From Halorubrum salsamenti (GTDB lineage Archaea > Halobacteriota > Halobacteria > Halobacteriales > Haloferacaceae): a DNA stretch of 64,000 bases. The first letter of the stretch is position 1. Each line of letters begins with the position of its first letter. The notes under the pieces are model-generated. The model made no database searches. It saw only the letters and a program-made list of their open reading frames with translations, and was not told the DNA's origin. Positions 42,504 to 59,853 of the stretch are shown here, one piece after another. The stretch spans positions 1-64,000 of the forward strand of contig NZ_VCNL01000008.1 in the NCBI RefSeq assembly GCF_007671685.1, written 5' to 3'. Made by a program: the position numbers and the translations under genes.

Positions 42504-42989
42504 TTAGTCGTTCGTAGCTTGCTCGCTCAGCATCTCCACAACTTCCTGAACACGTTCCTCATCGGCTTCGATACCACGCTCCCGGAGGATCTGGAGGGCG
42601 ACCTCATCACCGTGGTCTGCAATTACCCGGAGACACGCATCTTGAAATTCTCTTCCCTCAAATTCGGGAACATCAAACATAGAGCACGCAGCAGTTACCG
42701 ATGATCGCATCCGGGTGACGCCATTCCACGTGTCTTCCCGGACATAGAAGCCGTGCATATCGGTCTCATCAAAGGAGAAGGCCGGTCCACCGGTGGATTC
42801 GTCCACATCCTCCTCATCCTGCTCAGGAATGGACTCAGTCTCCGACTCTGTGTCCTCAGGAATTATCTCTTCATCCGGTTGCGGTTCATCCTGGGTGTCA
42901 GTACGTTCGTCGTCATCCGATTCGGCTCCTTCCTCCGTTTGTTTGAGCTGTTCAGCGACGTCCCCGAAACGGTCGTCCTCATTAGGCAT
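42504..42989 (-). CDS. Acidic ParA-partner protein, candidate centromere-binding protein
   Basis: A 161-residue protein. The first 75 residues are almost all Asp, Glu, Gln and Thr. The remainder is a compact domain starting AFSFDETDMHGFYVREDTWN and ending in a helix (RVQEVVEMLSEQ). It overlaps the end of parA by 8 bases. Position and size fit the second gene of a par locus (ParB-like function), but I see no ParB or ribbon-helix-helix motif. Confidence 0.65.
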   Translation of the reverse strand: MPNEDDRFGDVAEQLKQTEEGAESDDDERTDTQDEPQPDEEIIPEDTESETESIPEQDEEDVDESTGGPAFSFDETDMHGFYVREDTWNGVTRMRSSVTAACSMFDVPEFEGREFQDACLRVIADHGDEVALQILRERGIEADEERVQEVVEMLSEQATND

Positions 42990-43854
42990 GGCTGTGTTCC
43001 TCCACGAGGTCCGCTAAGTGGTCGAAATTCGGGATCTGGTCACAATCTTCGTCGAACTCCGAGACCGGCATTCCTTGCTTGAACGCGCGGGAAATTGCGG
43101 TCCGTTCGCGAATCCCTGGCTTCGGAATACTATCGATGGTGCGTCCCGAATCATCGAGGGCATCGAAGATCTCCGGGTCCACACGAGCGTACTCGGGGAC
43201 GAATGAACCGAACTCCCGGTTGAGATTTTCAACGAGAGTCCGATGCTCGTTGCGTTGTCCCATTGTTTCGCGAATCATATTCGGAGTGACTGCGAGGATA
43301 TCCAACCCGATATTCTGCCGGATTGGGGAGATCTGGCGTTCAATCATCTTATTGAGGCCGTTGATCGAGCCAGCACGCGGGATTAGCGGGATTATGACGC
43401 GCTGGACGGCGATGAGGGCGTTATCGGAGAGTTTCCCACGGCCGCCTGCGGCATCAATTATCACGTAGTCGTATCCGTTTTGTATGAGCGGATCGACAAC
43501 GTTCCGTCGAAGCTTCACGTCTGCGAACCGTTCGTCCTTCAGCCTCGTCTCGACGTTCTCGAGTTCGTTACTCGACGGGAGTAGGTGAACGCCGAAGTCC
43601 GTCTCGATAAGCAGGTCTTCGGGGTCCTCACCATCGATAAGGGCGTCACCGAGGTTCGCATCTCGGTCGTACGCATCGTCGTATCCCAACTGGGTCGTCA
43701 TGTGCCCGTCCTTATCCAGATCCAATAGTACCGTCTCATGGCCACGAGCAGCGAGTCGATCAGCGATGTTGAGCGCGATCGTGGATTTCCCTACCCCTCC
43801 CTTGAGCAACGAGACAGCTGCTCCGGGGAGCCCTTCAAACTCGTCAGCACTCAT
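42982..43854 (-). CDS. parA: ParA/Soj-type partition ATPase
   Basis: A 290-residue deviant-Walker ATPase. The Walker A motif LLKGGVGKST (residues 16-25) carries the signature Lys; then VLLDLDKDGHMTTQLGY (Walker A' and the switch Asp) and YVIIDAAGGRGKLSDNA (Walker B). It segregates plasmid copies by moving partition complexes over the nucleoid. It overlaps the acidic partner gene. Upstream lies an A/T-rich block of repeats that is the natural candidate for the partition site and for autoregulation. Confidence 0.92.
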   Translation of the reverse strand: MSADEFEGLPGAAVSLLKGGVGKSTIALNIADRLAARGHETVLLDLDKDGHMTTQLGYDDAYDRDANLGDALIDGEDPEDLLIETDFGVHLLPSSNELENVETRLKDERFADVKLRRNVVDPLIQNGYDYVIIDAAGGRGKLSDNALIAVQRVIIPLIPRAGSINGLNKMIERQISPIRQNIGLDILAVTPNMIRETMGQRNEHRTLVENLNREFGSFVPEYARVDPEIFDALDDSGRTIDSIPKPGIRERTAISRAFKQGMPVSEFDEDCDQIPNFDHLADLVEEHSHA

Positions 43855-43879
43855 AGCTCAGCACCCCCATAAGAAGAGG

Positions 43880-44240
43880 ATTTTGTACATTTTGTAGGTA
43901 ATGTACATTGGGTAGATGTTGAAGGTTGCGCGAGTTTTGTCGATAATGTAAGTTTCGCACTGGTCATACGCGGTTAGTGAAGCTCGTCCATCTTAATTCT
44001 GTGTCAGACAGATTGCGCACGCCATCTACACAATCTACATTTTGTACATTACGTAGATTGTTGGCACAATCTTAATTGGCATAATCACCGTCGACCCTAC
44101 GCAATCTACATAATTTAGATTATAAGCATTTCATACGTATTTATCGCAATCTTTGCCACCCACACGAACCAATTGAAGAAGTCCAATTTGCATTATCTAC
44201 ATTATCCACATTATGCAGATTGGCTATGAGATCTACATTC
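43880..44240. repeat. A+T-rich repeat cluster upstream of parA (candidate partition site or origin)
   Basis: Many degenerate copies of CAATCTACAT / TTGTACATT occur in both orientations. At 44031-44060 CAATCTAC and GTAGATTG form an inverted repeat around TTTTGTACAT. At 44103-44121 CAATCTACAT and TAGATT do the same. At 44192-44221 ATTATCTACATTATCCACAT runs into TATGCAGATTG. Near 43881-43915 TTGTACATTTTGTAGG and AATGTACATTGGGTAGATG recur. No gene lies within. This is the pattern of a centromere or iteron origin, right between parA and a divergent HTH gene. Confidence 0.75.
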
Positions 44241-44347
44241 TTCGGTTATTCAATTGAAAGTCCTGAGTGATAGAACTCAGACAGAGCAGTTCTACCCCGT
44301 ACTCTAGTAAGGCTTTTAACTGTTACCGGATTATTGGTAATCACCAG

Positions 44348-45022
44348 ATGTATGAGGTTCTCGACGACACCGCGGCGCAGGTCATCCTCACCATCGAGAG
44401 TGGTGACTCCATCCGCCGTGTCGCCCAACACCTCCACACGCCCTACGAGACAGTGAGACAGGCCGTCAATCGGCTGGAAGAGGCAGGCTACGTTTCCTAT
44501 GACGACGGCCTCACTGTAGTCGACGAGCGCGTATGCGACGCAGCGCTCGATCTCGTCGCTGCCAGCGCCGGCGTCAGTCCACCCTCCATCGAGGAAACGT
44601 ACGTCATCCCACAGTTCAGTGACTGGCCGTTCGCGTTCACGCGGATCGACGCCGTCTACGTGTGGACTCAGGGCGGCTACCAGGTCGGTCGCAAGCCCGA
44701 CGACTATCCACTGTTCCTCGCTGTTCGTGAGCAGGACGTCGACGCCTGGGAGGCGTTTTTCGAGTCGTTCGGCCTCCCCACTGCATTTGAGCGACAGCCG
44801 GGAGGCGAACTGGACGGACCGCTGCAAATCGTCCTCGAGCCACGCCCCTCACTCGACATTGAACACATCGAGGGGTACCCGGTGATCCCGAGAGACGAGA
44901 CGATCGAGTATATGTGCGAGAACTACGCCCAATTCCAGTCGGCACTGGCAATGCTCAACCGGATGTACGAAGACCTCGAACTCGGTATCACCGACAGGAA
45001 GACTGAGCGAGTGCAGTCATAA
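44348..45022 (+). CDS. Haloarchaeal HTH protein beside the partition locus
   Basis: A 224-residue protein. Residues 1-70 are a winged helix (MYEVLDDTAAQVILTIESGD, HTPYETVRQAVNRLEEAGYV). The remainder is an alpha/beta domain with WPFAFTRIDAVYVWTQGGYQ, then DDYPLFLAVREQDVDAWEAF. The whole architecture is familiar from haloarchaeal genomes as an HTH protein of unknown role. The ATG at 44348 follows the end of the repeat block. The second domain looks substrate- or nucleotide-binding rather than DNA-binding. Confidence 0.7.
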   Translation: MYEVLDDTAAQVILTIESGDSIRRVAQHLHTPYETVRQAVNRLEEAGYVSYDDGLTVVDERVCDAALDLVAASAGVSPPSIEETYVIPQFSDWPFAFTRIDAVYVWTQGGYQVGRKPDDYPLFLAVREQDVDAWEAFFESFGLPTAFERQPGGELDGPLQIVLEPRPSLDIEHIEGYPVIPRDETIEYMCENYAQFQSALAMLNRMYEDLELGITDRKTERVQS

Positions 45023-45087
45023 GTTTCGGCAATCGGAGTGGCACCCATCGAACTCCTACGGTTCACAGTGATTTCTAAGTCGGCCGT

Positions 45088-46272
45088 TCAGCCCCCAGAA
45101 GGGAACTGACCAATATCCTCGAACCGGACTGTCGGTCCCATCCAGTTCCCGTCTTCGTCGTAATGGAGGTTGACGTTCCAGCCGAGTTCCTGCCAGATCT
45201 CCGTGAGCGGGTTGCGTAGCGAGTCGGTGACGTCGGCCTCGGCCAGCGGGATTTCAGCCAGGTCGGTCGTGTACCGGTCCGTCCGCAATGGCTGCTGCAC
45301 CGCCGGTCCCGATATCCGGGTTTCGTATGCGATGGTCGCGCCCTTGGCGTCCAGCAGGCTGATAAAGCAGAACACGGTTCCGGTCACACCCATCTCCTTC
45401 AATGCGCGGATCCCGTCCTGCACCGCGATGCCCGCCTTGCAGTCCAGCGACTTGTCGGTGTCCCGGGCGTTATTCAACAGGAGACCGTCCTGCTCGTCCT
45501 CACGGAACACCCACGTATCCACCGCCTCGTACAACCCGTCTTTCTGCAGGTACGTGTAGGACTTGTACGGCTGTCCCATCCGTCCGCCCGCGTTCAGCTT
45601 CCCCTTCCCCACGGTCTCGGTGCCGGGATGGACGTTCAGCTTGCCCATCCGGGGAAGTCCGGGGAGACCGTCGGATTGTTGGACGTAGTTCCCGCTGAAA
45701 ACGCCGTTCGGAATCAGGTGGACGACCGCTGTCGGGCCTTCCTCCAAGTCGCTGGCCACGCCTTCCCGGTTGGAAATCAGGTCAAGGCGTTCGTCCCGTA
45801 GATCGATGATCTGGTCCAGATGGTCGTCGTTCCGCTTCGGGTTGAATCCGAAGTGCCGCTCCGCGAGGTCCGGTCGTTCATGACCGGTAATCCCGATGAT
45901 ATGCCGCCGGTGCAGGATTTTCAGATCCCATCCATACGCTTCTTCGATCTCTGCCTCCATATCCAGTTCCTGCTGTCCGGTGACGCGCTGGTTCGTCACG
46001 AACACCAGGAGGTCGAAGGACTCGCTCTGCGCCTCCTCGAGTTCCTCCACGCTTTCGGCGTCGTCGCGGAGCTTCCCTCTCCAGTTGTTGTCGACGCTGG
46101 CATGGCCGATTCCCTTTCGGCCGTTGATCTCGATGCGAGCATCCCAGCCGCCGTCGGTTCCGATCACACCGCTTTCGTGAACGTCGTAACCTTCGTTCCG
46201 CAGTACCTCGCCGGCGATCTTCTCGAAGGTTGTTCCGTCGACGGTGTCGACGGCCCACTCGAGTTTATCCAT
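45088..46272 (-). CDS. Mrr-like nuclease-fold protein (candidate defence nuclease)
   Basis: A 394-residue protein. The N-terminus has the Mrr-type PD-(D/E)XK shape: TFEKIAGEVLRNEGYDV, then GTDGGWDARIEING with the Asp. The usual QxK is replaced by GIGHASV followed by WRGKL, so the active Lys may have moved or be lost. A small alpha/beta extension with LLVFVTNQRVTG fits the Mrr fold. The C-terminal half (VVHLIPNGVFSG, GQPYKSYTYLQKDGLYEAV) resembles the region after AlbA/Schlafen-type ATP-binding domains, faintly. It is divergent, 126 bp apart, from the HEPN pair. Confidence 0.6.
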   Translation of the reverse strand: MDKLEWAVDTVDGTTFEKIAGEVLRNEGYDVHESGVIGTDGGWDARIEINGRKGIGHASVDNNWRGKLRDDAESVEELEEAQSESFDLLVFVTNQRVTGQQELDMEAEIEEAYGWDLKILHRRHIIGITGHERPDLAERHFGFNPKRNDDHLDQIIDLRDERLDLISNREGVASDLEEGPTAVVHLIPNGVFSGNYVQQSDGLPGLPRMGKLNVHPGTETVGKGKLNAGGRMGQPYKSYTYLQKDGLYEAVDTWVFREDEQDGLLLNNARDTDKSLDCKAGIAVQDGIRALKEMGVTGTVFCFISLLDAKGATIAYETRISGPAVQQPLRTDRYTTDLAEIPLAEADVTDSLRNPLTEIWQELGWNVNLHYDEDGNWMGPTVRFEDIGQFPSGG

Positions 46273-46398
46273 GCCCTGTTTTCACTGCGGTTGATAAATA
46301 ACCGTTTGCTCAACCAGCACCGCTGTTTTAGAGGAAGATGATTGTATTCTTCGCTATCACTTAACTAGCAGGAGGTCCGAGGTTCGGTCATTCAACGG

Positions 46399-46944
46399 AT
46401 GACCGGGGAAGACGACAAGTTCACGGAGTGGATTGACGAGTTCCACGAGAAGGACCGAGAACATCAGATTGAGCGGATGGAGTGGATCGATAAACACCAC
46501 CCAAACACGGATGGGTACCGGGCCTTTCACGGCGGCTTCTCATCCTCCAATCTCTACGAAGAAGCACAGCAGGCCTACCTCTTCGGCCTGTTCCAAACCA
46601 GTATGATCAGCGCTCTCTCAGTGGTCGAACAGGAACTGATCGGCATCCTATATGGGGCGGGAGATGACGAGATCAAGGAGAAGGGTGCTGCCGCAGCGAT
46701 CGACGAAGCCGCATCGCGCCACCTCATAACACCGGAACAGAAACAGGTCCTACATCGGGTGCGGAAGGTCCGGAACCCGACTGCCCATTTCCGTCTGGGC
46801 GTGGACGATGATTCACTGGAGGCTCGCGCAATCAACCAAGATACCGCGCCATTCGATTTGATGAAGGAAGAGGCCCAGACAGCTTTGAAGGCCATGTTCA
46901 GTGTGATCGGGAACGGCGATGAGGGACTGAATGGATATCTCTGA
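46399..46944 (+). CDS. HEPN-domain protein, first gene of a double-HEPN operon
   Basis: A 181-residue, mostly alpha-helical protein. Around residues 120-132 it carries VRKVRNPTAHFRLG, the RN-x3-H (Rx4-6H) motif of HEPN ribonucleases. Helix pairs before it (AYLFGLFQTSMISALSVVEQ) form the rest of the four-helix fold, as in DUF4145-like proteins. It overlaps the next gene by 14 bases, so the two are co-translated. RNase activity is expected from the motif but not shown. Confidence 0.75.
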   Translation: MTGEDDKFTEWIDEFHEKDREHQIERMEWIDKHHPNTDGYRAFHGGFSSSNLYEEAQQAYLFGLFQTSMISALSVVEQELIGILYGAGDDEIKEKGAAAAIDEAASRHLITPEQKQVLHRVRKVRNPTAHFRLGVDDDSLEARAINQDTAPFDLMKEEAQTALKAMFSVIGNGDEGLNGYL

Positions 46945-48301
46945 CTTCGCCGATGTGGCGGATTCTGACGACCAGCTTGAGGAACTGGTGCACGACCTGC
47001 TCGACGCGACTGCGGACATCCTCGTCGACGTCGACCTGCCGCGGACGCAGGTTTCCGAACTACAGGGAACGGGCGGCGAAGCCAAGCACGTCCGGATCGA
47101 ACGCCCCAGCCTCGGCCCGGTTGTTCGAGACGTTGAGTGGTTAGACGACGTTGATGAAGCCATCGACTTTGCGGACCATCTTAGCGAGGAGTACGACTAT
47201 TCCATCGACCAGCATTACCTGACTAACCTGTTCAAAGACTCGTTCGGCCGAGCCGGACAGCACCTCGATTCGTACCAGGAGCAAGAAGACCGGATAACCA
47301 AGAACATCATCGCAGACGTCCACGGCCAGGGGAAGGCTGAGCTGATCGCCCCCTTGGAAGGATTGGACATCGAAACCGACCGGGTGCGCATTCGGGACGG
47401 GGTCGAGGTCCGCGACTACGAGGACGGCGTGGTCCTGGGCGAGGACTCCCTCCCACTTGTGTCCGATACGTTCGGCGGCCGGCACCGTGTGTACAACGAC
47501 TCCTACCTCCGCATTGAGTTCACAGAGAATGACTTACTGGCAAAGGTGCCGATGCAGGCGATCAACCTATACACGTTAGCGATCAGCCTATCGCTCGGCG
47601 GGTTGGTGCGCGACCTTCGTACCTACATCAGTCCTGTAACGTACAGCATGCACAAGTGGGGGCGGAAGATGTCATCCGGCCAGCCCACCGGGTTCGGAGT
47701 TGAAATCACCGAGAAGAACGGTCCGCAGATACAGGCCACCTTGGACCTGCTGGAACCGTACTTCGAGTTGTCCTCGGAACCGTACGAGACGCCGTACGCA
47801 GCCTTCTACAATTTCAGTGGTCCAGGAAACCTCGCTATCAGCCACTACGGCAGGGCGATCAACACGTGGAGCATCCCGGATAACACGGTCACGTTCACGA
47901 TTCTCGGCCTAGAATCACTGTTCATTCAGCACACCGCTGGCGAAACCCCGAGCAGAGACGTACCACGATACGCCGGTTTTCTCATCGGGAACGCCGTAGA
48001 CATGTTCGACCCGATCACCGTCGCCGACTACATCAGCAGCGGTTACGAACTCCGGAACCAGTGGGCTCACGGCGGGAAGCCCGACCGTGAACCAAGCGAA
48101 CTGGAGGCGTGGTTGTGGGCGATTCTCCGCGCCGCGATATACGTCTTCTACTGGCTCGACACCTACACGTCACTGCTTGACCAAGGACTTCCGCTGGGTG
48201 ACGCATTGATCGACGGAGAAACCAGAGAGTCGGTGAAAGCGGAGCTGGACACGTTCGATGTCACAGAGTACATGGAAGTCGAGTATCTGAAAGCCGACTG
48301 A
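46931..48301 (+). CDS. Larger HEPN-domain protein, second gene of the operon
   Basis: A 456-residue protein. The first 230 residues show no known domain. The C-terminal part has YELRNQWAHGGKPDRE (residues about 372-385, again RN-x3-H), with flanking helices (TFTILGLESLFIQHTAG and LWAILRAAIYVFYWLDTY). This resembles ApeA/Apea-type HEPN effectors, in which a large N-terminal sensor precedes the RNase. It overlaps the smaller HEPN gene. The two RN-x3-H proteins might form a heterodimeric RNase; that is inference. Confidence 0.7.
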   Translation: MDISDFADVADSDDQLEELVHDLLDATADILVDVDLPRTQVSELQGTGGEAKHVRIERPSLGPVVRDVEWLDDVDEAIDFADHLSEEYDYSIDQHYLTNLFKDSFGRAGQHLDSYQEQEDRITKNIIADVHGQGKAELIAPLEGLDIETDRVRIRDGVEVRDYEDGVVLGEDSLPLVSDTFGGRHRVYNDSYLRIEFTENDLLAKVPMQAINLYTLAISLSLGGLVRDLRTYISPVTYSMHKWGRKMSSGQPTGFGVEITEKNGPQIQATLDLLEPYFELSSEPYETPYAAFYNFSGPGNLAISHYGRAINTWSIPDNTVTFTILGLESLFIQHTAGETPSRDVPRYAGFLIGNAVDMFDPITVADYISSGYELRNQWAHGGKPDREPSELEAWLWAILRAAIYVFYWLDTYTSLLDQGLPLGDALIDGETRESVKAELDTFDVTEYMEVEYLKAD

Positions 48302-48319
48302 CGACGAATAATCGCTGGT

Positions 48320-48794
48320 CTACAGTTCGTTCGGCAGGAGGGCAGTGATTGACGCCTTGAACGCTTGCTCATCGTCGACGGCTCCGCGCACCACGAGGCC
48401 GTCAGATCCGTACTCGGCCAGTAACTGCGGCATGCGCCGCACACCGATATCTCTCCTTCTTCGGCGTGCACGGTCGCGGCTACGACCTGATCCACACCGT
48501 CCGCAACGCCATGAACACGACCAACTCGACCGTCGCTAATACGCGGATGTCCGTTGCTGAATGTCGTTCCCGTTCAGTACGGGCACCGTGCTCGTGGAAG
48601 AACTTATCAATACGATCAGTAAGGGAATCCGCATTCTCTCCATCGACGTGAACGACCAACGTCGGATGCTCCGCGTCGCTATTTTCAATGACGAGGGAGA
48701 CATCTTTGAACTAGTCCGGCTGTCTGTACGCCTAAAACTCATCGGCGACTTGGTCGGCTAGGTCGTCAAGCACCTCGATCGGTTCCTTTGTCAT
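48320..48794 (-). pseudogene. Decayed gene with two in-frame amber codons
   Basis: From an ATG at 48794 the frame reads MTKEPIEVLDDLADQVADEF, stop TAG, AYRQPD, stop TAG, then FKDVSLVIENSDAEHPTLVV and IDKFFHEHGARTERERHSAT to a TAG at 48480. A further coherent piece in another frame (MPQLLAEYGSDGLVVRGAVD, ending NEL at 48320) looks like its continuation after a frameshift. Codon use in these frames is haloarchaeal, so it was once a gene. I do not recognise the family. It follows the HEPN pair tail to tail. Confidence 0.55.
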
Positions 48795-48950
48795 AGATTG
48801 AAGTTCGGCCTTGGAAGGTTGTGCCATCGCGAACGGGCGGAGAAAGCGTGAATTGCCTTTCAGAACCACCTCCATCAAACCAGCTCGAATGGAGCTTTCT
48901 CACACCGATGATTTACCGAGGAGAAGACCGAGCCACAGAAGTACAGCGGG

Positions 48951-49385
48951 TTAGAGCGCTCGCGGGTCGCTATCGATGATCCTCGCAAACGCGACGTTCT
49001 CCTGAACTTGTTCGATTTCGACTGTTGGCTCGTCGCCGGGTTGAGCGCCAGGAACGATCACGACGTACCCACGTTCGACTTTCGCAATACCGTCGCCCTG
49101 ATCGCCGACTGTCTCAATGGTCACATCACGTACTTCGCCTTCCTCAACGGGGGGTCCAGAGGGAGAATGGCCCGCAGTCTCCCGAGAGGGGGTTCTCCGT
49201 GACTCCCGTTGTACTGACGACTCCGTCGAGTCAGGAGATTCCAGAATCGCTACGCGATACGTCTCGTCAGCCGACAACGCTTCAGAACCGACTTCTCTGG
49301 AAGGAACCTCTACTATGTATGTCCCATCTTGTTCTTCGATTGGAGCACTGAACAGAGAGCGAAGGGAGTTGGGGATTTCAATCAT
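48951..49385 (-). CDS. TRAM-domain protein
   Basis: A 144-residue protein. The N-terminal half is a variable haloarchaeal region; residues 80-140 form a TRAM OB-fold (EEGEVRDVTIETVGDQGDGI, VVIVPGAQPGDEPTVEIEQV). TRAM proteins bind structured RNA and can act as RNA chaperones. It is a stand-alone gene, 74 bp downstream of the cytidine-deaminase-like gene on the same strand, so it may belong to the end of that operon. Confidence 0.8.
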   Translation of the reverse strand: MIEIPNSLRSLFSAPIEEQDGTYIVEVPSREVGSEALSADETYRVAILESPDSTESSVQRESRRTPSRETAGHSPSGPPVEEGEVRDVTIETVGDQGDGIAKVERGYVVIVPGAQPGDEPTVEIEQVQENVAFARIIDSDPRAL

Positions 49386-49459
49386 TTCTAACTATATGAA
49401 CACACGGTGATAATTAGCTTCTGTGATGACCACCGACTTCTGGTCCAGATCGGGAGACA

Positions 49460-49921
49460 TTAGGGAAGTAAATCAGCGAGAGCGGTCTCTTCGACCTGCT
49501 CACCGTCAGTAATGTGTATGATCACTTCATCTTCAGATGAATAATCTCTGAGAACCTGAAGACAGCGTCCACAGGGGGGCGACAACTCGTCACTCGCGAC
49601 TGCGACATCTACAATTTGTTGCTTAGTGCTGTCAAACCCTTTCCAAACTGCAAGTTCGAGAGGATGTACATCATGAGACATCCCTTTCGTTAGTCGAGTT
49701 CCAGCCCAGACGGAACCATCCTCAGTTCGGACTGCTACCCCAACATCTGACTCATCTTTGGCCTCAAACGCTTTTTCCCGCAGAGACTCCCAGCGTGTTT
49801 CTTCATCTTGTTCATCCCCACTTGAAGGGATACCGAGCTGATCAGGGGTTAGTCGTCGTATTTTAGTCGGTGTACGGTGGGTGTTTCTAATTCCCAGCTG
49901 TGTTTGGGTGTGCTCAGTCAT
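49460..49921 (-). CDS. Cytidine-deaminase-like protein, last gene of the candidate defence operon
   Basis: A 153-residue protein of the cytidine deaminase superfamily. The zinc half-site SPPCGRCLQVLRDY (PCxxC) is intact. The other half reads DVHPLELAVWKGF: His and Glu are separated by two residues (HxxE) where the family has HxE or CxE. It could be a real variant or alter the active site. It overlaps the upstream 202-residue gene by 8 bases. Within an operon holding a methyltransferase and helicase, it may act on free nucleotides or DNA during defence. Confidence 0.7.
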   Translation of the reverse strand: MTEHTQTQLGIRNTHRTPTKIRRLTPDQLGIPSSGDEQDEETRWESLREKAFEAKDESDVGVAVRTEDGSVWAGTRLTKGMSHDVHPLELAVWKGFDSTKQQIVDVAVASDELSPPCGRCLQVLRDYSSEDEVIIHITDGEQVEETALADLLP

Positions 49922-50522
49922 AGGTGACGAATGACTCCTCCGTTATTTCTGAATCACTAGTTCTGTACAAGTGGGAGAAAGCTTCTCCACCAAACTCGTA
50001 GCCAAATTCCTCAATGAATGTCTCAACAAGAGTATAAGCAGAAGGATCGTCCACCTCAAATCCATAGTCGCGGAACAGATACGCAGACAAAGATTCTGCG
50101 GGAATTTGATTGTCATCACAAAGATGGTGTCGGGCAAGCTGCCAATGACGATCTTCAATTCCCCATTTCGAATTATGTCCTCCTTCCTCAACTTCGGCTA
50201 TTTGCATAAGTGGGGCAGTTGATCGAAGGGAGGAAGGAGCATATGTACCGGCGACGTTCTTATTATACCAGAGAGAACTCAGCGACGGATTTGTTGATTG
50301 ATTGAAGGGGACAAAATAGGGCTTGGCCGAATCATCCTCCCCGACACGGAGGTAATCGTCGAAAAATTCGTTATAGGGAAAGGAGAGTCCAGTGTTCCGA
50401 TTATCGAGTCCGGATTGTTGCTGGAGACAAAGATATCCAGGAAACATCCGGTGGATAGGGGCATCGATTAACCGGTGGAGACAATCTCGTACGACTTCAG
50501 GTTTCAGGACGTATCTCGTCAT
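49914..50522 (-). CDS. Unknown protein between methyltransferase and deaminase genes
   Basis: A 202-residue soluble protein that I do not recognise. It contains DCLHRLIDAPIHRMFPGYLC near the start, an aromatic/Pro-rich centre (SSLWYNKNVAGTYAPSSLRS) and an acidic end. Both ends overlap neighbours (4 bases with the methyltransferase, 8 with the deaminase-like gene), so it is clearly part of the operon. In restriction-modification contexts this position is often taken by the endonuclease, but I see no nuclease motif. Confidence 0.6.
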   Translation of the reverse strand: MTRYVLKPEVVRDCLHRLIDAPIHRMFPGYLCLQQQSGLDNRNTGLSFPYNEFFDDYLRVGEDDSAKPYFVPFNQSTNPSLSSLWYNKNVAGTYAPSSLRSTAPLMQIAEVEEGGHNSKWGIEDRHWQLARHHLCDDNQIPAESLSAYLFRDYGFEVDDPSAYTLVETFIEEFGYEFGGEAFSHLYRTSDSEITEESFVTYD

Positions 50523-51883
50523 TTGTATGTGGACAGTGCTTGGTCCTGTTGGAAGTTGGAAGTATCTAAGTCTGTCCCAAACCCATTATATCCGAGACTG
50601 TTCGCCACTTGGATGGTGGTTCCAGAGCCAGCAAATGGGTCAAAGACAGTTCCCCTAGTCCAATCAGGATCCTCACACTCACAGCTGGTCCACCCGACAG
50701 TAGTCCACTCAGGGAAAGTGAATTCACGGAAGTAACCACCTAGAATTTCTTTTGCCTTCTTAGCACGACGCTGAACATCTTCATCGTTTGCTCCAGCACC
50801 AACTTGGAATTCCTCTGCTTTCCCCACGTCAGAAATCCCGACGGCCTGAATGGCTCGGATATGGTCCTCTGTCAACTCGTCGTGATTATGGTAAATTTCC
50901 AATGCCCGCTCTGCCTGCGGACGATCCGTATTGAGCTCTGTTAATCCTCGCTTCGTATCCCGACGTCTAGGCTCATTACACTCGGAACAGATTGAAGGGG
51001 GACATGCAAGCGTGATTGCCCTCCGCACTAGGTCTCGTGGGAACGGAGCAAGGTGATCTCCAGTATTCCGATCATGAGAGATGCGCCATACGTCTCCCGG
51101 GTTCGATCCATTTCCGTATAACTCTGAGTAGCCGTGCAAGTCGTAGAAATAATTATCTTTGTCTTGGACTAGATGGAATATTGGCTCATGCCGTGGAACA
51201 AGCCGGTCTTGGGCTGAAGACGGGATTCCATTATCCTTAGCCCACTGAATTTCGTTCCGGATAGTCCATCCCGCCTCTTGAGCAGCTCTTGCAAACCGAC
51301 CAGGGATTCCCTGAAGGCTTTTATTATGGTATGTGTCGCCGATGTTAAGGAACACAGACCCAGTAGGCCGAAGAAACACTTTCCAGTGCTCTAGTGCATC
51401 GATCAGGTTCTCGATATAGGTATCCGGATCAGGCTCCTGTCCCAGCTGGTCTTCGGTCCCATAGTCCCTCTTTTGCCAATAAGGGGGAGAGGTGACGATG
51501 AGATCTACTGAATTCTTACAGAGATCGATCGCATTCTCTTGGTTTTCACTGCCACCGTCTTTGGGATGGATTTTCGCTGCGTCGGCCTCAACGACATTCC
51601 ACCAAGGCTCAGTATCAGCGGGGAATTCCCCTTGTCCTTCTTTCAGTTTCTCCAAGTCAGGAGCAGGGTGATCGAAGTACTCCTCTAGATCACCGACTAG
51701 ATTGACCGCAGCTTTCGGGTTGTCAAGGAGGTAATCATATAGGTCATCAATATTACGAGCCTCCCCGACTTCGTCCACGAAGTCCGTAAGAGAGGTAGAA
51801 TTGTTTTGATGACTGATGTGCTGAGCTATAATTTCTATTACACCTCGAACTTCCTCGTCAACCTCAGATAGATTCTCATCCAT
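50519..51883 (-). CDS. Beta-class DNA methyltransferase, N4-cytosine type
   Basis: A 454-residue modification enzyme. Motif IV is LIVTSPPYWQKRDYG (about residue 126-140); TSPPYW is typical of N4-methylcytosine enzymes. Motif I, TVFDPFAGSGTTIQV, follows near residue 410, so the order is the permuted beta class. Between them lie a target-recognition region and a Cys pair (CPPSICSECNEP) that may bind zinc. An N-terminal helical extension of about 100 residues precedes the enzyme. It would mark DNA against a paired restriction activity. The stop overlaps the 202-residue gene. Confidence 0.88.
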   Translation of the reverse strand: MDENLSEVDEEVRGVIEIIAQHISHQNNSTSLTDFVDEVGEARNIDDLYDYLLDNPKAAVNLVGDLEEYFDHPAPDLEKLKEGQGEFPADTEPWWNVVEADAAKIHPKDGGSENQENAIDLCKNSVDLIVTSPPYWQKRDYGTEDQLGQEPDPDTYIENLIDALEHWKVFLRPTGSVFLNIGDTYHNKSLQGIPGRFARAAQEAGWTIRNEIQWAKDNGIPSSAQDRLVPRHEPIFHLVQDKDNYFYDLHGYSELYGNGSNPGDVWRISHDRNTGDHLAPFPRDLVRRAITLACPPSICSECNEPRRRDTKRGLTELNTDRPQAERALEIYHNHDELTEDHIRAIQAVGISDVGKAEEFQVGAGANDEDVQRRAKKAKEILGGYFREFTFPEWTTVGWTSCECEDPDWTRGTVFDPFAGSGTTIQVANSLGYNGFGTDLDTSNFQQDQALSTYK

Positions 51884-51979
51884 GAATCAGATCCCTCCGA
51901 CAGAGTGGGGGTTGCATCGTTGTTACGCTTGTTTCTCGGGGTGCTACTAGTGGACTTCGCAATAATATTCGACGACGAC

Positions 51980-52438
51980 TCACGGTTCGTCGTCCTCCTC
52001 CGGCTGATACTGCTCCTTGACCTCGAGAGCCAGTTCCCGCCGTGGTTCGTCATCTGCCGGACCAAATACTCGACCGTGTAGCAATTCGATCCCCGCATTA
52101 GCGTACTCTTCGGCGATCTCATAGACCATCCGCTGGTCACGAAGAACTCGAACATCTCTCTCTTCACTCACTGCCACAGCCTCGATAACAGCCTGCTGGC
52201 GTTCCGAGAGACTCGCACGCCCGAAAAACGCACCCTTTTCGTTCTTTATCGTTTCAGGCATTGTGTTCTCTCTCCCATATCCAAGTGCAAACATGAACAG
52301 ATCGTGATTCTCAGCCTGATAGAAGGGAGAATCCTCAGATTCCTGCAACGCCTCAAACATTTCTCGCCGTTCGCTATCTATATGAACGTCACGCCGGGGT
52401 TCACGCTCCTCGTAGCTGTCTTCGGTATCTTGACTCAT
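51980..52438 (-). CDS. DNA-phosphorothioation-associated protein 4-like
   Basis: A 152-residue acidic helical protein. DLFMFALGYGRENTMPETIK, then FFGRASLSERQQAVIEAVAV and AEEYANAGIELLHGRV follow the pattern of the small protein known as dnd system-associated protein 4, found beside DNA phosphorothioation restriction genes. The assignment is from memory of the family and needs a profile search. The start overlaps the stop of the DndD-like gene by 4 bases. Confidence 0.6.
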   Translation of the reverse strand: MSQDTEDSYEEREPRRDVHIDSERREMFEALQESEDSPFYQAENHDLFMFALGYGRENTMPETIKNEKGAFFGRASLSERQQAVIEAVAVSEERDVRVLRDQRMVYEIAEEYANAGIELLHGRVFGPADDEPRRELALEVKEQYQPEEDDEP

Positions 52439-54435
52439 CGGTCGGTCACCTGTGTTACACCGTTTTGGAATTCAAGATGGTACTCATTCGCAACCTCGTT
52501 GGAAATGTACGCCCTGACGTCTTCACTATACTCGACGTCAGTCATGAGGAACGTGACCTGGGTATCATTCAGGTAGTCAGGTACATTCTGCGCGATAAGC
52601 TGTTTCGGCTCGCTAGATATCCGTCCCAAGGGTGTATCGATGACAACAGGGGCGGAGAATCCGCTGATTTTGGAAAGTGCAGCCATGAACGAGAGAGCAA
52701 GCACTTGTCGTTCGCCAGCAGAAAGTGAACCCAGATTCTTCCGACCGTCCGGACCGTAGAGGCGCACCTCATACTCTTCAGTGAGGACTACCTCATAGTC
52801 TTCATCTTTCCAAATAAGATCGTTATAGTATCGTTCGAGCCGTTGTTCAGTTTCCGTTCGAACCTGCTCCAGAATCTCTCCTTTGATCTCAGAGAGCTTG
52901 TCAGTAGCACTGTCGATGAATTCACTCTGTCTCACAAGCAGGTCATGTTCGTCCTGCTCTCGCATTGCCTGTTTCCACTCCTCTCGGCGCTCATCAACGA
53001 CATCTTCCTGTTGTTCAATTTTCCCGTTCAGCTCCCCAACTTCACGTTCCATCTTACTGATCCGGCCTTGGATATCCCGACGGCGTTGCTCTAGTTCCTG
53101 GGCGCGTTCATTATCGATGATATCTTCGTCTTCAAGCTGGGCAGAGATGTTGGCCAGTTCTGTCTCGTTCTCGTCGATAGCTGTCCGTGTATCCTCTAGC
53201 TCGCTGAGGTCAGCCAGGAGATCCTCAATAAGCGATTCGCCATCGCGGAGTGCTCGCTCCATCCGGAGTCGACCCTCAATTGCGTCTTGGCTTTCACTAG
53301 TTTGCTCTTCCAACAGGTCCTCAATGTGTTCTCGTGAAGAGTCACATTCGGCCAAGTCAGTCCCACAAACACACGTATCCCGAGAAAGAATCCCTCGTAG
53401 TAATTCCTCTGTTAGCCCAGGGACACCGTTTTGTGACGATTCGTACTCTTCCAGTTCAGAAACAGCATATCGGAGGGCATCAGCGTTGTATGCAATCCCG
53501 CCCGATCGGGCGAGTGATGCCCCTACAGCCTCTTTCGCATCTACAAGCTCCTCTTCCTGTTCATCCAAGCGTTCTTCCAGATAGACACGGCGCTGCTGCA
53601 TCTCCCGAACGTCGTCGTCTGCACTGCCCGCAAGCTCATCGTAGATGTCATCTATTTTGCCCTCAGCAGTGTCGATCTCGTCCTCTAAGTTATCCCGCTT
53701 TTGTTTGAGCCGTTCTAGCTCTTGTGAGGCTTCCTCCTTCCGTTCTTGGAGTTCTTGTATATCACCGCCGAGCTCGGAGGATTCACTCTCAAAGTCCCGC
53801 TGTACCTTCCCTAAATGACTAACAGCACTATTCAGAAGTTCAATATGAGATACATCGAGCACCGCTGCCCGTACGTGGTCGGTATATCCAGTTTGGAAGA
53901 ACTCATCTAGCTGCTCACCATCGAACAAGAAATATTCGTGGACGTGGGTTGGGAGAATCTCGCGAAGAATATTTTCAGGGTTCGGGTTCGGTCGCCAGTC
54001 ATTCCCCCCAAACCGCTGGCGTAGCCGAAGGTCACCTATAGAGCTGTTAAATTGTCGTTCCTCGCGGTCTCCTTCTGTATCATCTTCTTGACGAGCTGTC
54101 GAGAAAGTTCGTCGGAAGGCGTACTCGGGTTCGCCTTTACCCAGCTTGATCTCGATGTGCCCCTGAATCGATTCACCAGGTTCCAATTCCTTCAGCCGTT
54201 TCTTGTTGACAAGCGGGTCCGACTCGAGGCCCTCGTCATCGTTCGAATCAGTATGGGTTTCTTCCCCATAGAAACACAGTGTAATCGCGTTCAGAATGTT
54301 TGACTTGCCAGATCCATTCTGCCCCTCAATCACGTTGATGTGCTTCTCTGCTGTGGTCTCTAAGGGGATAGTTTGATTTCCTTCATATTGCCGGTAATCC
54401 TCTATTTCGAGTTCGAATATCTGAACGTTATTCAT
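52435..54435 (-). CDS. DndD-like SMC-type ATPase
   Basis: A 666-residue ABC/SMC ATPase. Walker A VIEGQNGSGKSN (residues 36-46), a long coiled coil (about 195-540) with a zinc-hook-like CVCGTDL near 353, the ABC signature LGSLSAGERQVLALSFMAAL near 570 and Walker B PVVIDTPLGR near 600. The HVHEYFLFDGEQLDEFF stretch is characteristic of DndD and its relatives. Proteins like this couple ATP to DNA nicking, unwinding or sensing in sulfur-modification systems. The ATG at 54435 begins the conserved MNNVQIFELEIEDYRQYEG. It overlaps genes at both ends. Confidence 0.85.
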   Translation of the reverse strand: MNNVQIFELEIEDYRQYEGNQTIPLETTAEKHINVIEGQNGSGKSNILNAITLCFYGEETHTDSNDDEGLESDPLVNKKRLKELEPGESIQGHIEIKLGKGEPEYAFRRTFSTARQEDDTEGDREERQFNSSIGDLRLRQRFGGNDWRPNPNPENILREILPTHVHEYFLFDGEQLDEFFQTGYTDHVRAAVLDVSHIELLNSAVSHLGKVQRDFESESSELGGDIQELQERKEEASQELERLKQKRDNLEDEIDTAEGKIDDIYDELAGSADDDVREMQQRRVYLEERLDEQEEELVDAKEAVGASLARSGGIAYNADALRYAVSELEEYESSQNGVPGLTEELLRGILSRDTCVCGTDLAECDSSREHIEDLLEEQTSESQDAIEGRLRMERALRDGESLIEDLLADLSELEDTRTAIDENETELANISAQLEDEDIIDNERAQELEQRRRDIQGRISKMEREVGELNGKIEQQEDVVDERREEWKQAMREQDEHDLLVRQSEFIDSATDKLSEIKGEILEQVRTETEQRLERYYNDLIWKDEDYEVVLTEEYEVRLYGPDGRKNLGSLSAGERQVLALSFMAALSKISGFSAPVVIDTPLGRISSEPKQLIAQNVPDYLNDTQVTFLMTDVEYSEDVRAYISNEVANEYHLEFQNGVTQVTDR

Positions 54436-54631
54436 TGTCGAATTCTTGCAGTGATTCGTTCCCGACAAAGTTGTCCACGAGTTCTTTATACTGCTCAGCG
54501 TACTCGGCTCGCGGCTCTTTCAGAATGTCCCGTTCATGCTCCAAAACCCCGCGTAAGAAGGCCCGAAGATCGTCATCCTCAACCCCGTCAACACGGTCAA
54601 GGATTAACGAATGTACCTCGGAGTCGTTCAT
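54428..54631 (-). CDS. Small helical protein in the operon
   Basis: A 67-residue acidic protein (MNDSEVHSLILDRVDGVEDD at the start, then AFLRGVLEHERDILKEPRAE). It is fully alpha-helical in appearance and overlaps the DndD-like start by 8 bases. No family is recognised. It could be an adaptor between the helicase and the ATPase. Confidence 0.6.
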   Translation of the reverse strand: MNDSEVHSLILDRVDGVEDDDLRAFLRGVLEHERDILKEPRAEYAEQYKELVDNFVGNESLQEFDNE

Positions 54632-54675
54632 GCGATACTGCAACCATATCTACAAACGCATATCAATGTATCTTC

Positions 54676-56697
54676 TCAGATACCATATGCGATACGAACG
54701 TCTTCGATCTTGTTGCGGGCTTCATATTCATTTTCAGCTGTTTCAGCAAATTCCTCGAACCGACGGAGTTCCTTCTCTAGAATGTATTGTTCAGACGTCG
54801 CAATATCTTCATCTGGCTCAAGAGTGGGAACAACAAGTAAGTCATAGATATCCGCACGATCCTTACCGGGGGCTTGCCGAAGAACCCTACCTCGACGCTG
54901 GATAAATTGCATCGGGTTCCCAGTATTAGCCATCAAGATTGCTGTCCTAGTAGCTGGAACGTCAACACCTTCGTCTAGACACCGCATTGCCACAAGCGCT
55001 TCGTATTCACCCTCCCCAAACCGGGTGAGCAACTCCTCACGCAAGTCATCACCCTCCTCATGAGTAAACCGGTGATGCATAACCCCAAATTCGTTCAGAA
55101 TCGACCCGACTGTGTCTATCTGTTCTGGATTCGTATAGACTAGAAGGTGCTTGATATCATCTAAACCTCGAAGGATGTCTCGGAGGACATCGTACTTATT
55201 GATCGCTTCTTTAACGATTTCTGCGCGTTGTGATTGGAGAATATTTGTTGTCTCCTCATCCGCATCTTCAGAATATCTTGATGCGACTACAGACTGAGTC
55301 ATTTGACGATAGTCCTCCAGCTCGTCTTCATCCATTTCAACAACAATGGGATGATACCGATATGGGGTCAGATACTGCGGAATGGCGTCTTCTAACGGGT
55401 ATTCGTATATGACCCCGTCAAAATAGTCAAGCAGATGGTTAGAACCTTCTTCATCATAATAGCGCTCCGGTGTTGCTGATAGCCCAATCCTCGCATCATA
55501 GGAATCAAGAAGCCCTTTTCGCCTACCCTCAGAACCAAGGCCGTGTACTTCGTCCCCGATGAGGATTGTATCCCGAGAAAGCTGACTCACTTTCTCTCGA
55601 AAGTGCTCTCCAGAGAATGTTTGATGAGTTGTAATCAGGCATTCGTAATTCTTGATTCCGAGTTCTAAATTAGAAACCGCTCGGGAGAGATCGTTTTTCC
55701 AGTCGGGATTAGCTGAGTGATAGACAAATTTTGGTTGGTCAAGCCCGAACGTATCCATCTCCTGGGCCCACTGCCGCGCAAGGTGTTTCTGAGGGACAGC
55801 AATTACACAAAGAAGTGGATCATCTACGGTATCTGTGTATTCATCAAGCGCCGCTAGAGCTGTGAACGTCTTGCCTGTTCCAGTTGCCATCTGGAATAGG
55901 CCTCTGTTGTCATTCTCGAACCAAGCATCGACAGCGTTCCGTTGATAATCTCGGAGAACAATTTCAGATTCGGTTGTAGGGACTGGTTCTGGCGGTTCAT
56001 AAGGTCGATTGTTATTATCTCGGAGTTCAGCGATTCCCTCCTTAACCCCCTCAGGGATTGTATGGACCCCGACATTCTCATCTCGGTCTTTCCAAAGATT
56101 CTCAAACCGCTTTTCTTGCATATTCACCCCCTCATTATCGCGGTCGCTTATCCAATCGCAGTCGATGGTATATGCTTCGTAATTCCGGAGAGCCTGTTCG
56201 CTATCGTTCTGGGAGCCATGGAAGGCGACTCTATTCCCATTCCAGTCATAAAATACGCCAAATTTATCGTGGAAATCCCCAGAGAGGTTCTTTGAGGGGA
56301 CAGCCAGCTTAATTTCGAGTAGACCATCGGCGATCATCCACGCGATCGCATTACGAGTTTCATACTCGAGGTCATACCGGAGATCAGAAATCGTGCTATC
56401 TAACGATTCCCGGAGTACCTCATCTGTTTTAGCACGATTCCCCTTCTTTAGAGCCTCCCAGTCATCTTCTTCTAAAATAGGGCTCATTATCCACTGCGCA
56501 GTGCCACCATTTTCGGCAAGCTCTGCTATTCCGCGAGCTGCAGATCGAACCCAATTCGTAGTGAAATATCCGACACCACGTCGATAGATCTTAGCTCGTG
56601 AGAGAAGGGGGACATAGAAATCCTCCATTAGGTCATCAGAAGAAGTATCGATGACCCGGGGGAGTTCCAAATCTGTGAAATCGCTCTCGGGATCCAT
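54676..56697 (-). CDS. PLD-nuclease-like / SF2 helicase fusion
   Basis: A 673-residue protein. The first 190 residues form a phospholipase-D-like domain: YRRGVGYFTTNWVRSAARGI, then DFHDKFGVFYDW (HxK near residue 141) and FHGSQNDSEQAL. From about 240 it is a superfamily 2 helicase: Q-motif region LRDYQRNAVDAWF, Walker A MATGTGKTF near 270, DEVHGLG (DExH) near 380, LSATPERYYDE near 405 and QRRGRVLRQAPGK (motif VI). The ATG at 56697 is preferred to one ten codons upstream. It is the first gene of the operon and likely the DNA-engaging engine. Confidence 0.88.
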   Translation of the reverse strand: MDPESDFTDLELPRVIDTSSDDLMEDFYVPLLSRAKIYRRGVGYFTTNWVRSAARGIAELAENGGTAQWIMSPILEEDDWEALKKGNRAKTDEVLRESLDSTISDLRYDLEYETRNAIAWMIADGLLEIKLAVPSKNLSGDFHDKFGVFYDWNGNRVAFHGSQNDSEQALRNYEAYTIDCDWISDRDNEGVNMQEKRFENLWKDRDENVGVHTIPEGVKEGIAELRDNNNRPYEPPEPVPTTESEIVLRDYQRNAVDAWFENDNRGLFQMATGTGKTFTALAALDEYTDTVDDPLLCVIAVPQKHLARQWAQEMDTFGLDQPKFVYHSANPDWKNDLSRAVSNLELGIKNYECLITTHQTFSGEHFREKVSQLSRDTILIGDEVHGLGSEGRRKGLLDSYDARIGLSATPERYYDEEGSNHLLDYFDGVIYEYPLEDAIPQYLTPYRYHPIVVEMDEDELEDYRQMTQSVVASRYSEDADEETTNILQSQRAEIVKEAINKYDVLRDILRGLDDIKHLLVYTNPEQIDTVGSILNEFGVMHHRFTHEEGDDLREELLTRFGEGEYEALVAMRCLDEGVDVPATRTAILMANTGNPMQFIQRRGRVLRQAPGKDRADIYDLLVVPTLEPDEDIATSEQYILEKELRRFEEFAETAENEYEARNKIEDVRIAYGI

Positions 56698-56879
56698 CTT
56701 AAAACAAATAATGAGGCAGAGGGTCAAAAGCGTATACGCTCTTCCGTAGGAGATTGTTGATACAGCCTCTCGTTACGTATATCATTCAGTAGCTGACAGT
56801 CAAAACTGCTGAGTCGTGTGTTCTCACTCTGCTCGATTCACCACGGGATCACTGGACGGCTCTCCATCAACAATATGCT
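56698..56879. promoter_or_regulatory. Upstream region of the seven-gene operon
   Basis: This stretch must hold the promoter for the leftward operon. A/T-rich bases (aaaacaaataatgag) flank the start at 56697. No operator is recognised. Confidence 0.4.
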
Positions 56880-57226
56880 ACACAAGAGCGTACGTCGATA
56901 GAGGATATGGACATTAACGAATAGTTGGCTGAGGTATCGGACAATATCGGTTCGGCACTCGACGGCCGAGAGGGAGAAGTCTGGATCCTGGTCGGCAAGT
57001 CCCACCTGAATGCCGAGAACGCGGACGGGTACAGCCTACGCCGTACGCTCAATAAGCAGGAGGATATCACGGTCCGATACCCGTTCCACCAGACAGCGGG
57101 GTAGGTGAACAGCAAGGGTGGCTGAACAAGGCCGTGAAGAGTGACCGGCCGAAGATGCCGTACGCCATACTCGATGACGGCCAACAATCTCTGAATCGGT
57201 ATGAAGACGACGCCCTCCCGGATTAA
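56880..57226 (+). pseudogene. Decayed gene converging on the GHKL gene
   Basis: A coherent frame reads QERTSIEDMDINE, a TAG at 56920-56922, then LAEVSDNIGSALDGREGEVW, VGKSHLNAENADGYSLRRTL and RYPFHQTAG. It then shifts frame and continues EQQGWLNKAVKSDRPKMPYA and DDGQQSLNRYEDDALPD to a TAA at 57224-57226. One nonsense and one frameshift lesion are needed. No start codon is evident, so the 5' part may be lost. I do not recognise the family. Confidence 0.55.
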
Positions 57227-59853
57227 TCGCCGCCGTCGTCCGCCGGCCCCTTCATCGACTCGAGAATCTGATCAGGCAACTGGTGGACCGAGAACGTACC
57301 GTCATCTGGGTCGAAACTGACCATACCCGTGCTGGCCTCGGCAACGACCAGGACGCTACGGATCTTATCCTTCGTGATCGAGTTCTTCCCCTCTGCGCGG
57401 AGGGTTGCACGGACCATCCCGACGTCCGGTTTATCGTCCGTCTCGCTCATGTACTGGTTCCGCGCCTCTTCCAATACCGTGCGGACGATCCCCGTTTCTT
57501 CGGGCATCTTGCTCCATTCCTCATCGATCACCTCCAGCAATCGCTCGTTCCGCGGCTCGGCGTCCGTCGTCATGATTTCCTTGATGTGCTGGTGGCTGAA
57601 TCCTTGGGCCGCGTGCCTGTCGAGGATCTCCTTCACGGCGTCGACGGTCAGCAAGGTGAGCTCGTCGTGCATCTTGAACTGCTTCAACAATTTGCTCTCG
57701 TCCTCTCCCGGCGGCCCGTTCAGCTGGAACTCGCGTGCGACGAACAGTGTATGGTCGCATTCGTCGGTCTCCATGTGCTCAAGTGCGGTCGCGAACTCTG
57801 CGTCGGAGTGGTCGACCGGGCCCTTGTCCTCTCCTTTCCCCTTCGCTTCCATCGAGACCTTGAACGGGTCGTCCGCCTGCACGCCGAACGTGATGATAGC
57901 GTCGGAGTCTCCGGACGCCCCGAAGTGCTCGGCCTCCAGTCCGATGTGGTTGCAGGCGTCGACGATGGCCTGCTCGAAGTCGTCGTCGCCCTCGTAGGAC
58001 ATCTTCTCGATCTGTTCCTTGTGGTACTCCATCGGGTCTTCGAGGAACCGTGAGGCCGTCCGCAGCGCGTCCTCCGAAATGTCGATACTGCTGTCCACCA
58101 GGTCGTCGCGGACGTTCTTGTATGAGAGAAATCCCGAGGAGATTAGGTTCCCGGCTAACGCCTCGCCTATCACCTTCACCAGATCGTTCGGCAGGTCCTT
58201 CGCCTTCAGAGACTGGAACAACGGGTGGTCCTCGTTCACGTAGATGGTTCCGTCGTGGTAGTCCACCGCGTTCCCTTTCCGCCCGTGCTCCGCGAGATGG
58301 ACATCAACGTCCTTCCACCCGCTAGCCGGGTAGTCGGTGTCATCCCGGTTCGCAAGACCTTCCAGTGCTTGCGGCGCCATGTGCGGCGAGATCGAGTGGA
58401 GACGGTGGCCGAACTCTTCGGGGTCGTACTCGTCTTTCTCCTCGGCGTCGACGGCACGGCCACGGAGGACGCTGAAGAAGCTCTCCATCAACGCACGGCT
58501 GAGTTCGGGGCGCAGTCCTTCGCGGACGGAGTCGCGCTGGACGAGGATGTCCTCGTCGAGTTCCGGGATTTCGAACTCGCCGGCGAACCGGTAGAACCAC
58601 TTGTACACCTTGTCCGCGGTTCCGAAGTGCGGGTCACCACGGTTTAACAACTTGCCGCGGACGGTGACCTTGAACCCGTAGTCGTGGAGGTTCCTGTCCT
58701 GGAGTTTGTCGCTGGTCAGCAGTTCCTTGTAGATCGAACCCTGGGCGATGACCGGGCCGAGTTCGTCGACTTCGACTGCTGCTATCTCGTTCGACGATTC
58801 GTCTTCCGATTCTTCCTCCTCGTCGATGTCCGCTTCCTCGTCTCCCTCTTCCGATGCTGATTCTACTTCCTCGTCCTCTTCTGGTTCGTCGCTGGTTTCC
58901 TCGTACGGGTTGAGATAGACCGTTTCGAGCTTGTACTTCTCTTCCGGGACGTCGTCACCGTCGTCGTAATCGTCGCTCCAGCCGACCCAGAATTCCTTCA
59001 ACGCCTGCTGAACCTTTTCGCGGGCGTCCTCGTCGTCCGCAAGGTTGTCAATCGAGGCGTAGGTCTCGTCCGGGTAATCGCGTTGATCGATCTCTCGCCC
59101 GTTCTTGTGGATGATGAAGTTCGCGGATCGGGGAATGGCGGTTCTGATCATCCGGTCCAGGTACTCCGGTTTCAAGTCGCGGCCTGTGCTTTCCTCGTCG
59201 ATGTCGTCAACAACGGCCAAGGTCCAGCTGTCCCAGTCTTTGTCCCACGGGTCCGGAACGTCCTTCAGGTAGGATCCGAGGTATTCGCGGGCCTCGTCTT
59301 CATCCATCCGATAAACCTCTGCATTGGGCGGGTCGGACATGTCGTGGCCCTCGATCTCCTGCTGCGACACGGAGACGATGCGCGTGACGCCGTCCTTCGT
59401 TGCGACGTGGGTGAGCTGGTTCCCAAGCGCGAATGCCGCGAGCTTGCCGACGCCGAAACGGCCGATCTGTCGCCGGCCCTTGACGTCGTCGGCGTCGATC
59501 TTCCGATCCTCGCCCTGTTCGGCAAGTTTCTTTTTTGAACCTCCCGCGACTTCCCACAGGATCTCGAGCTCGTCCTTGTCCATCGAGACGCCGTTATCGA
59601 GGACTTGGAGCACGTCGTCGGACTTCTTCGGTGTGGAGACGTAGCACTCCGTTGCCGCGGCGTCGTAGCTGTTGCATACGAGTTCCTCGATGGCGCGTCG
59701 CGGATTCGTGTAGAGCTGGGACGAGACCTGGCGGAGGATGTCGTAGCTGATCTGAATGGAGAACTCGTGTTCCTGGGTGGCGTCAGAAAAGAAATCGTCG
59801 AGACCGCGGTGATCCCCGTCCGCGTCGGATGAGGAGGGATCTGTTTGGGCCAT
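57223..59853 (-). CDS. GHKL ATPase fused to a PD-(D/E)XK nuclease domain
   Basis: An 876-residue protein. The GHKL (Hsp90/MORC/histidine-kinase) ATPase motifs are AIEELVCNSYDAAA (N box, residues 55-67), VLDNGVSMDKDE (G1, 84-95) and IGRFGVGKLAAF (G2, 130-141). A long acidic linker (about 325-360) is followed by a helical middle. Near residue 655-675 IITFGVQADDPFKVSMEAKG has the D-x(n)-E-x-K layout of a restriction-endonuclease fold. The combination recalls MORC-like ATPases predicted in prokaryotic defence. It lies alone, beyond the seven-gene operon on the same strand. Confidence 0.75.
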   Translation of the reverse strand: MAQTDPSSSDADGDHRGLDDFFSDATQEHEFSIQISYDILRQVSSQLYTNPRRAIEELVCNSYDAAATECYVSTPKKSDDVLQVLDNGVSMDKDELEILWEVAGGSKKKLAEQGEDRKIDADDVKGRRQIGRFGVGKLAAFALGNQLTHVATKDGVTRIVSVSQQEIEGHDMSDPPNAEVYRMDEDEAREYLGSYLKDVPDPWDKDWDSWTLAVVDDIDEESTGRDLKPEYLDRMIRTAIPRSANFIIHKNGREIDQRDYPDETYASIDNLADDEDAREKVQQALKEFWVGWSDDYDDGDDVPEEKYKLETVYLNPYEETSDEPEEDEEVESASEEGDEEADIDEEEESEDESSNEIAAVEVDELGPVIAQGSIYKELLTSDKLQDRNLHDYGFKVTVRGKLLNRGDPHFGTADKVYKWFYRFAGEFEIPELDEDILVQRDSVREGLRPELSRALMESFFSVLRGRAVDAEEKDEYDPEEFGHRLHSISPHMAPQALEGLANRDDTDYPASGWKDVDVHLAEHGRKGNAVDYHDGTIYVNEDHPLFQSLKAKDLPNDLVKVIGEALAGNLISSGFLSYKNVRDDLVDSSIDISEDALRTASRFLEDPMEYHKEQIEKMSYEGDDDFEQAIVDACNHIGLEAEHFGASGDSDAIITFGVQADDPFKVSMEAKGKGEDKGPVDHSDAEFATALEHMETDECDHTLFVAREFQLNGPPGEDESKLLKQFKMHDELTLLTVDAVKEILDRHAAQGFSHQHIKEIMTTDAEPRNERLLEVIDEEWSKMPEETGIVRTVLEEARNQYMSETDDKPDVGMVRATLRAEGKNSITKDKIRSVLVVAEASTGMVSFDPDDGTFSVHQLPDQILESMKGPADDGGD

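Follow-up and report, generated by a model that had tools for sequence, protein, structure and literature searches.

A haloarchaeal PbeABCD operon with a DNA methyltransferase and a cytidine deaminase-like protein that has lost its catalytic glutamate

The window, a 64,000-nucleotide stretch of contig C20, carries seven ORFs between positions 49460 and 56697 that the initial annotation described as a coupled operon resembling phosphorothioation restriction without the sulfur genes. The seven ORFs, all on the minus strand and free of internal stops, are the following.

54676..56697, minus strand: PbeA, 673 aa, with an N-terminal HKD/PLD-like domain and an SF2 helicase (PADLOC PDLC02707, 5.6e-228)
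54428..54631, minus strand: PbeB-like small protein, 67 aa, with its ATG at 54631, assigned by position and 44-99% identity
52435..54435, minus strand: PbeC, 666 aa, a CxC-type ABC ATPase (PADLOC PDLC02723, 3.4e-219)
51980..52438, minus strand: PbeD, dnd-associated protein 4-like, 152 aa (TIGR04062, 5.3e-11, below cut-off)
50519..51883, minus strand: gene 5, beta-class N4C/N6A DNA methyltransferase, 454 aa (PF01555, 3.5e-36; PADLOC MTase_II, 3.7e-121)
49914..50522, minus strand: gene 6, 202 aa, without a library match
49460..49921, minus strand: gene 7, 153 aa, cytidine deaminase fold with the catalytic Glu replaced

Five of the six junctions are overlaps or gaps shorter than 50 bp: pbeA and pbeB are 44 bp apart, pbeB and pbeC overlap by 8 bp, pbeC and pbeD by 4 bp, the methyltransferase gene and gene 6 by 4 bp, and genes 6 and 7 by 8 bp. 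The exception is the 96 bp gap between pbeD and the methyltransferase gene. The complete gene order is found again in eight or more other loci, some with homologues only ~35-70% identical, which is more than expected by chance. The operon is thus real, and its orthologues keep the seven-gene order.

Genes 1 to 4 are pbeA, pbeB, pbeC and pbeD of a named system (PbeABCD; CxC-ABC ATPase/DndE type), in the A-B-C-D order and with both the PbeB small protein and PbeD present. PbeA has the ResIII and Helicase_C domains of Pfam; motif search and alignment reveal the HxK/GSxN pair of its HKD-type domain (FHDKFGVFYD and GSQNDS) together with conserved SF2 helicase motifs. PbeC features a Walker A motif, a CVCG zinc hook at position 355 corresponding to the CxC type, the LSAGER signature of ABC ATPases and a VVIDTP motif. 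The PbeB-like protein gives no match in Pfam, PADLOC or NCBIfam, and occupies the same place in the other Pbe loci carrying genes 6 and 7, with the identity range given above. PbeD, termed DndE cognate in the literature (PMC10853773), matches dnd_assoc_4 so weakly that it is assigned mainly by its position and by identity between loci.

The operon shares the pbeA-pbeB-pbeC-pbeD order and full-length PbeA and PbeC family matches with the PbeABCD genes described together with DndCDEA (PMC6459918), but has no adjoining dnd genes and codes instead for the methyltransferase, gp6 and a pseudo-deaminase. The CxC-ABC ATPase/DndE systems of a 2024 reappraisal have the HKD-SF2 helicase, the small protein, the CxC ABC ATPase, the DndE cognate and a methylase, which can be of the cytosine-C5 or N4 type with an associated MTaX1 domain, whereas the terms deaminase and gyrase are absent from that text (PMC10853773). 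Methyltransferase genes were also reported beside 155 of 320 solitary pbeAC pairs, and a pairing of methyltransferase and Pbe was proposed on that occasion (Xiong 2019, PMC6459918); no experimental test of it was found in the literature searched. Methylase-coupled Pbe is therefore already published as observation and hypothesis, and the idea that the operon is a distinct system does not hold for genes 1 to 5. What is new is the adjacent pair formed by gene 6 and the pseudo-deaminase gene, which travels with the methyltransferase and not with Pbe, and the fusion of the pseudo-deaminase to a GyrA domain in three genomes. None of the three (gene 6, pseudo-deaminase, fusion) is described in the literature searched, from which most subscription papers were outside scope.

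The absence of sulfur genes noted at first is correct for the window, where no dndC, dndD or dndE ORF lies beside the operon and pbeABCD is not joined to a dndC-dndD-dndE-dndA set. It is only local, since contig C12 of the same genome codes for DndC (4.6e-171), DndD, DndE and a DndA homologue near 326.9-332 kb. These dnd genes are flanked by two further Pbe modules in the order pbeA, pbeC, pbeD, dndC, dndD, dndE, DndA homologue, a third PbeA/PbeC-like pair and a 153-aa gene (~321.6-338.2 kb). The DndA homologue (L003:75-989) is 59% to the cysteine-desulfurase-like gene that follows dndE in locus L144. A gene at L003:1422-2642, which separates the DndA homologue from the third PbeA on C12, was considered as DndA and discarded, its product being TFIIB-like. 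A pattern search that missed the HKD motif in the C12 PbeA was corrected by alignment, which displays YHEKLGII and GSLNET.

With dndCDEA supplied in trans, the Pbe proteins of the window could in principle read phosphorothioate in this genome, the methyltransferase being then an unrelated passenger. Dnd-coupled Pbe was shown experimentally to block a virus (PMC6459918, PMC10853773), and in the one system tested Pbe depends on phosphorothioate (PMC6459918). The distribution of the genes makes this reading improbable. Gene 6 occurs in 11 genomes in a survey of 392 genomes of the order, with a gene-7 relative adjoining it in every case, and 9 of these 11 have no dndC, the exceptions being the genome of the window and G123. 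Phosphorothioation is therefore not required, and as a general mark made in trans it is disfavoured. Moreover, the C12 locus owns two Pbe modules itself, and the methyltransferase stays with the operon in diverged loci. tblastn found no dndC, dndD or dndE beside the other gene-6 loci either, and the linkage to dnd genes in relatives that would have spoken against a sulfur-free operon is missing there.

PbeABCD lies beside genes 6 and 7 in 9 of the 11 genomes. The pbeABCD-MTase-gene6-gene7 order is complete in G046, G088, G363, G134 (Halovivax asiaticus) and G197, as well as in Haloarcula amylovorans, Halogranum rubrum and plasmid pMHR1-1 of Haloprofundus sp. MHR1; G383 (Halobiforma nitratireducens) has the same seven-gene arrangement spread over contig ends. 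These genes thus co-occur in further haloarchaea as well. The methyltransferase gene of G157 and G244 (Natronomonas aquatica) is found beyond a gene-7 fusion and does not adjoin gene 6, so the tie between the two is looser there. G244 also has two incomplete copies of gene 6, each at the end of a contig (L100 29-286 and L101 8692-9054), which may be one second copy split over contigs. G039 and G123 (Salarchaeum japonicum) have MTase-gene6-gene7 behind two genes, one for a GHKL-type ATPase (685 aa in G123) and one of 247 aa, with no PbeC found in either genome at 1e-40, indicating that genes 6 and 7 accompany the methyltransferase rather than Pbe. A PbeC tree groups together six sampled sequences linked to genes 6 and 7 (95/98), while a seventh linked one, from L097, is placed without support.

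Gene 5 codes for an N6_N4 methyltransferase in which a conserved TSPPYW motif precedes a conserved DPFAGSGT, with a Cys cluster inserted. This is the beta-class order (SPPY before DPFxGxGT), from which a cytosine-N4 product cannot be read, archaeal m6A and m4C methyltransferases being sometimes highly alike in sequence (PMC10609329, R-M survey). TSPPYW makes N4mC a plausible product rather than N6mA. Methylation is likely the self-mark, because the methyltransferase replaces local dnd genes, the gene order is kept and dndC is missing from most carriers. The proposal that N4-methylcytosine takes over from sulfur is in this way supported as regards the probable replacement of the mark.

The initial annotation also assigned to gene 7 the role of an added effector, a nucleotide deaminase. 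The protein gives a weak match to the cytidine deaminase model TIGR01354 (1e-9) and a sequence-profile match to 1ux1 (1.1e-12); its predicted structure (pLDDT 76.8) matches 2d30 (1.6e-8) and 1ux1 (4.7e-8), establishing a cytidine deaminase fold. Eleven system-linked proteins were aligned with 18 haloarchaeal housekeeping enzymes, using as numbering aid a B. subtilis row whose register agrees with the database alignment of gene 7 to 1ux1. Glu55 of the B. subtilis enzyme is catalytic and Asn42 contacts the ribose. The three zinc ligands (H86, C117 and C120 in gene 7) are retained in all 11 system-linked copies. The [HC]xE motif of active enzymes, in contrast, has lost its Glu: every one of the 11 copies has Leu or Ile there, and none of them has Asn42, while both residues are kept by all 18 housekeeping enzymes. 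Gene 7 shares with cytidine deaminases (B. subtilis 1JTK/1UX1 and the haloarchaeal housekeeping proteins) the fold and the His/Cys/Cys ligands, and differs further by an N-terminal extension and, in some cases, by a fused GyrA C-terminal domain.

An active enzyme that would, for example, deplete nucleotides during infection has the fold and ligands in its favour, and deaminases with catalytic activity do take part in defence against phages (AvcD, PMC10511110). The motif comparison leads us to reject this effector, which is very unlikely also from the fact that gene 7 follows the methyltransferase and not one effector module. A role on DNA is suggested instead by three genomes (L095, L097 and L100) that encode gene 7 as the N-terminus of a longer product of 659-699 aa, which also contains six repeats of the GyrA C-terminal domain (PF03989, 1.9e-56 to 3.9e-62) and a GyrA-box-like motif. 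Together with the Glu loss, this fusion points to a non-catalytic, DNA-associated function of gene 7. L146 1804-3447 encodes a GyrA C-terminal-domain protein of 547 aa that stands alone; it shares 38-43% identity with the fusion proteins and lies ~2 kb away from another Pbe-like locus.

Gene 6 has no match in Pfam, PADLOC, NCBIfam, PHROGs or phage and viral collections. No copy outside the order turned up in a sample of 393 genomes of the phylum, and gene 6 is confined to Halobacteriales within the searches run. A sequence search of the PDB gave no convincing relative, the best hit (7awz, 2.1e-4) having no single stretch that passes alone, and the AlphaFold model, of low confidence (mean pLDDT 41), was left unused. 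An alignment of the genes that follow pbeD elsewhere among Pbe loci established no relation to gene 6. Gene 6 may be the MTaX1 domain of the published systems.

Taken together, the operon probably codes for a Pbe-type (CxC-ABC ATPase/DndE-like) restriction system for virus defence, with base methylation as self-mark and with genes 6 and 7 on the methyltransferase side. The methyltransferase would methylate host DNA, probably at cytosine N4, and PbeC and PbeD would scan DNA. PbeA, with its helicase and HKD-type domain, and PbeB would act with PbeC and PbeD to block replication of unmarked DNA or to cut it. Gp6 and the pseudo-deaminase would most likely form a pair of non-catalytic DNA-bound subunits that helps the methyltransferase or the scanner to recognise its target or the methylation state.

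The same two genes might form a control switch of the operon that, for example, postpones or restrains restriction, and not recognition subunits. The overlaps of gene 6 with gene 7 and with the methyltransferase gene are consistent with tight dosage, and gene 7 evolves fastest, but the fused DNA-wrapping domain of GyrA type indicates a task carried out on DNA and we regard a switch as rather unlikely. A broader conjecture, also unlikely, combines methyltransferase, gene 6 and pseudo-deaminase into a portable self-marking module that connects to two restriction engines unrelated to each other, Pbe and the GHKL-ATPase operon. The dead deaminase would there read the methylated or unmethylated base while bound to DNA, with the gyrase-type wrapping domain keeping it in place in some lineages.

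The region has signs of transfer. Positions 42164-56736 are 96.4% identical to pMHR1-1, near-identical operons are present in genomes of other families, and the G+C of the operon region is ~0.47-0.51 compared to 0.56 for the window. Among near copies dN/dS is at most 0.09 in six genes and 0.17-0.24 in the pseudo-deaminase gene; all seven genes are therefore under purifying selection, with gene 7 changing fastest.

Proteins with a HATPase domain are also found around Pbe loci. An 876-aa GHKL/HATPase_c_3 protein (57223-59853, minus strand) adjoins pbeA in the window. GHKL profiles match 8 of 25 Pbe loci and both gene-6-only loci, compared with 1 of 30 control loci, a contrast biased by profile seeds taken from these same loci. 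Proteins of 968-979 aa are encoded downstream of pbeABCD at L137 14142-17081, L138 3020-5926 and L139 3481-6408; in the L138 protein a HATPase is joined to an N6_N4 methyltransferase (Pfam), and the other two proteins resemble it in length, HATPase profile and ITSPPY motif. On the other side of the operon, a 456-aa gene without Pfam match (46931-48301, plus strand) has a start resembled by that of a 450-aa Salarchaeum plasmid gene, which adjoins an 881-aa HATPase.

A recognition role for the cytidine deaminase fold was not found described in the literature searched. The conserved dead deaminase and its fusion to a GyrA domain are unexpected parts of a Pbe operon that suggest such a role, and carriers of the operon free of dndC, for example Halovivax asiaticus (G134), would allow a clean test of methylation-coupled Pbe.
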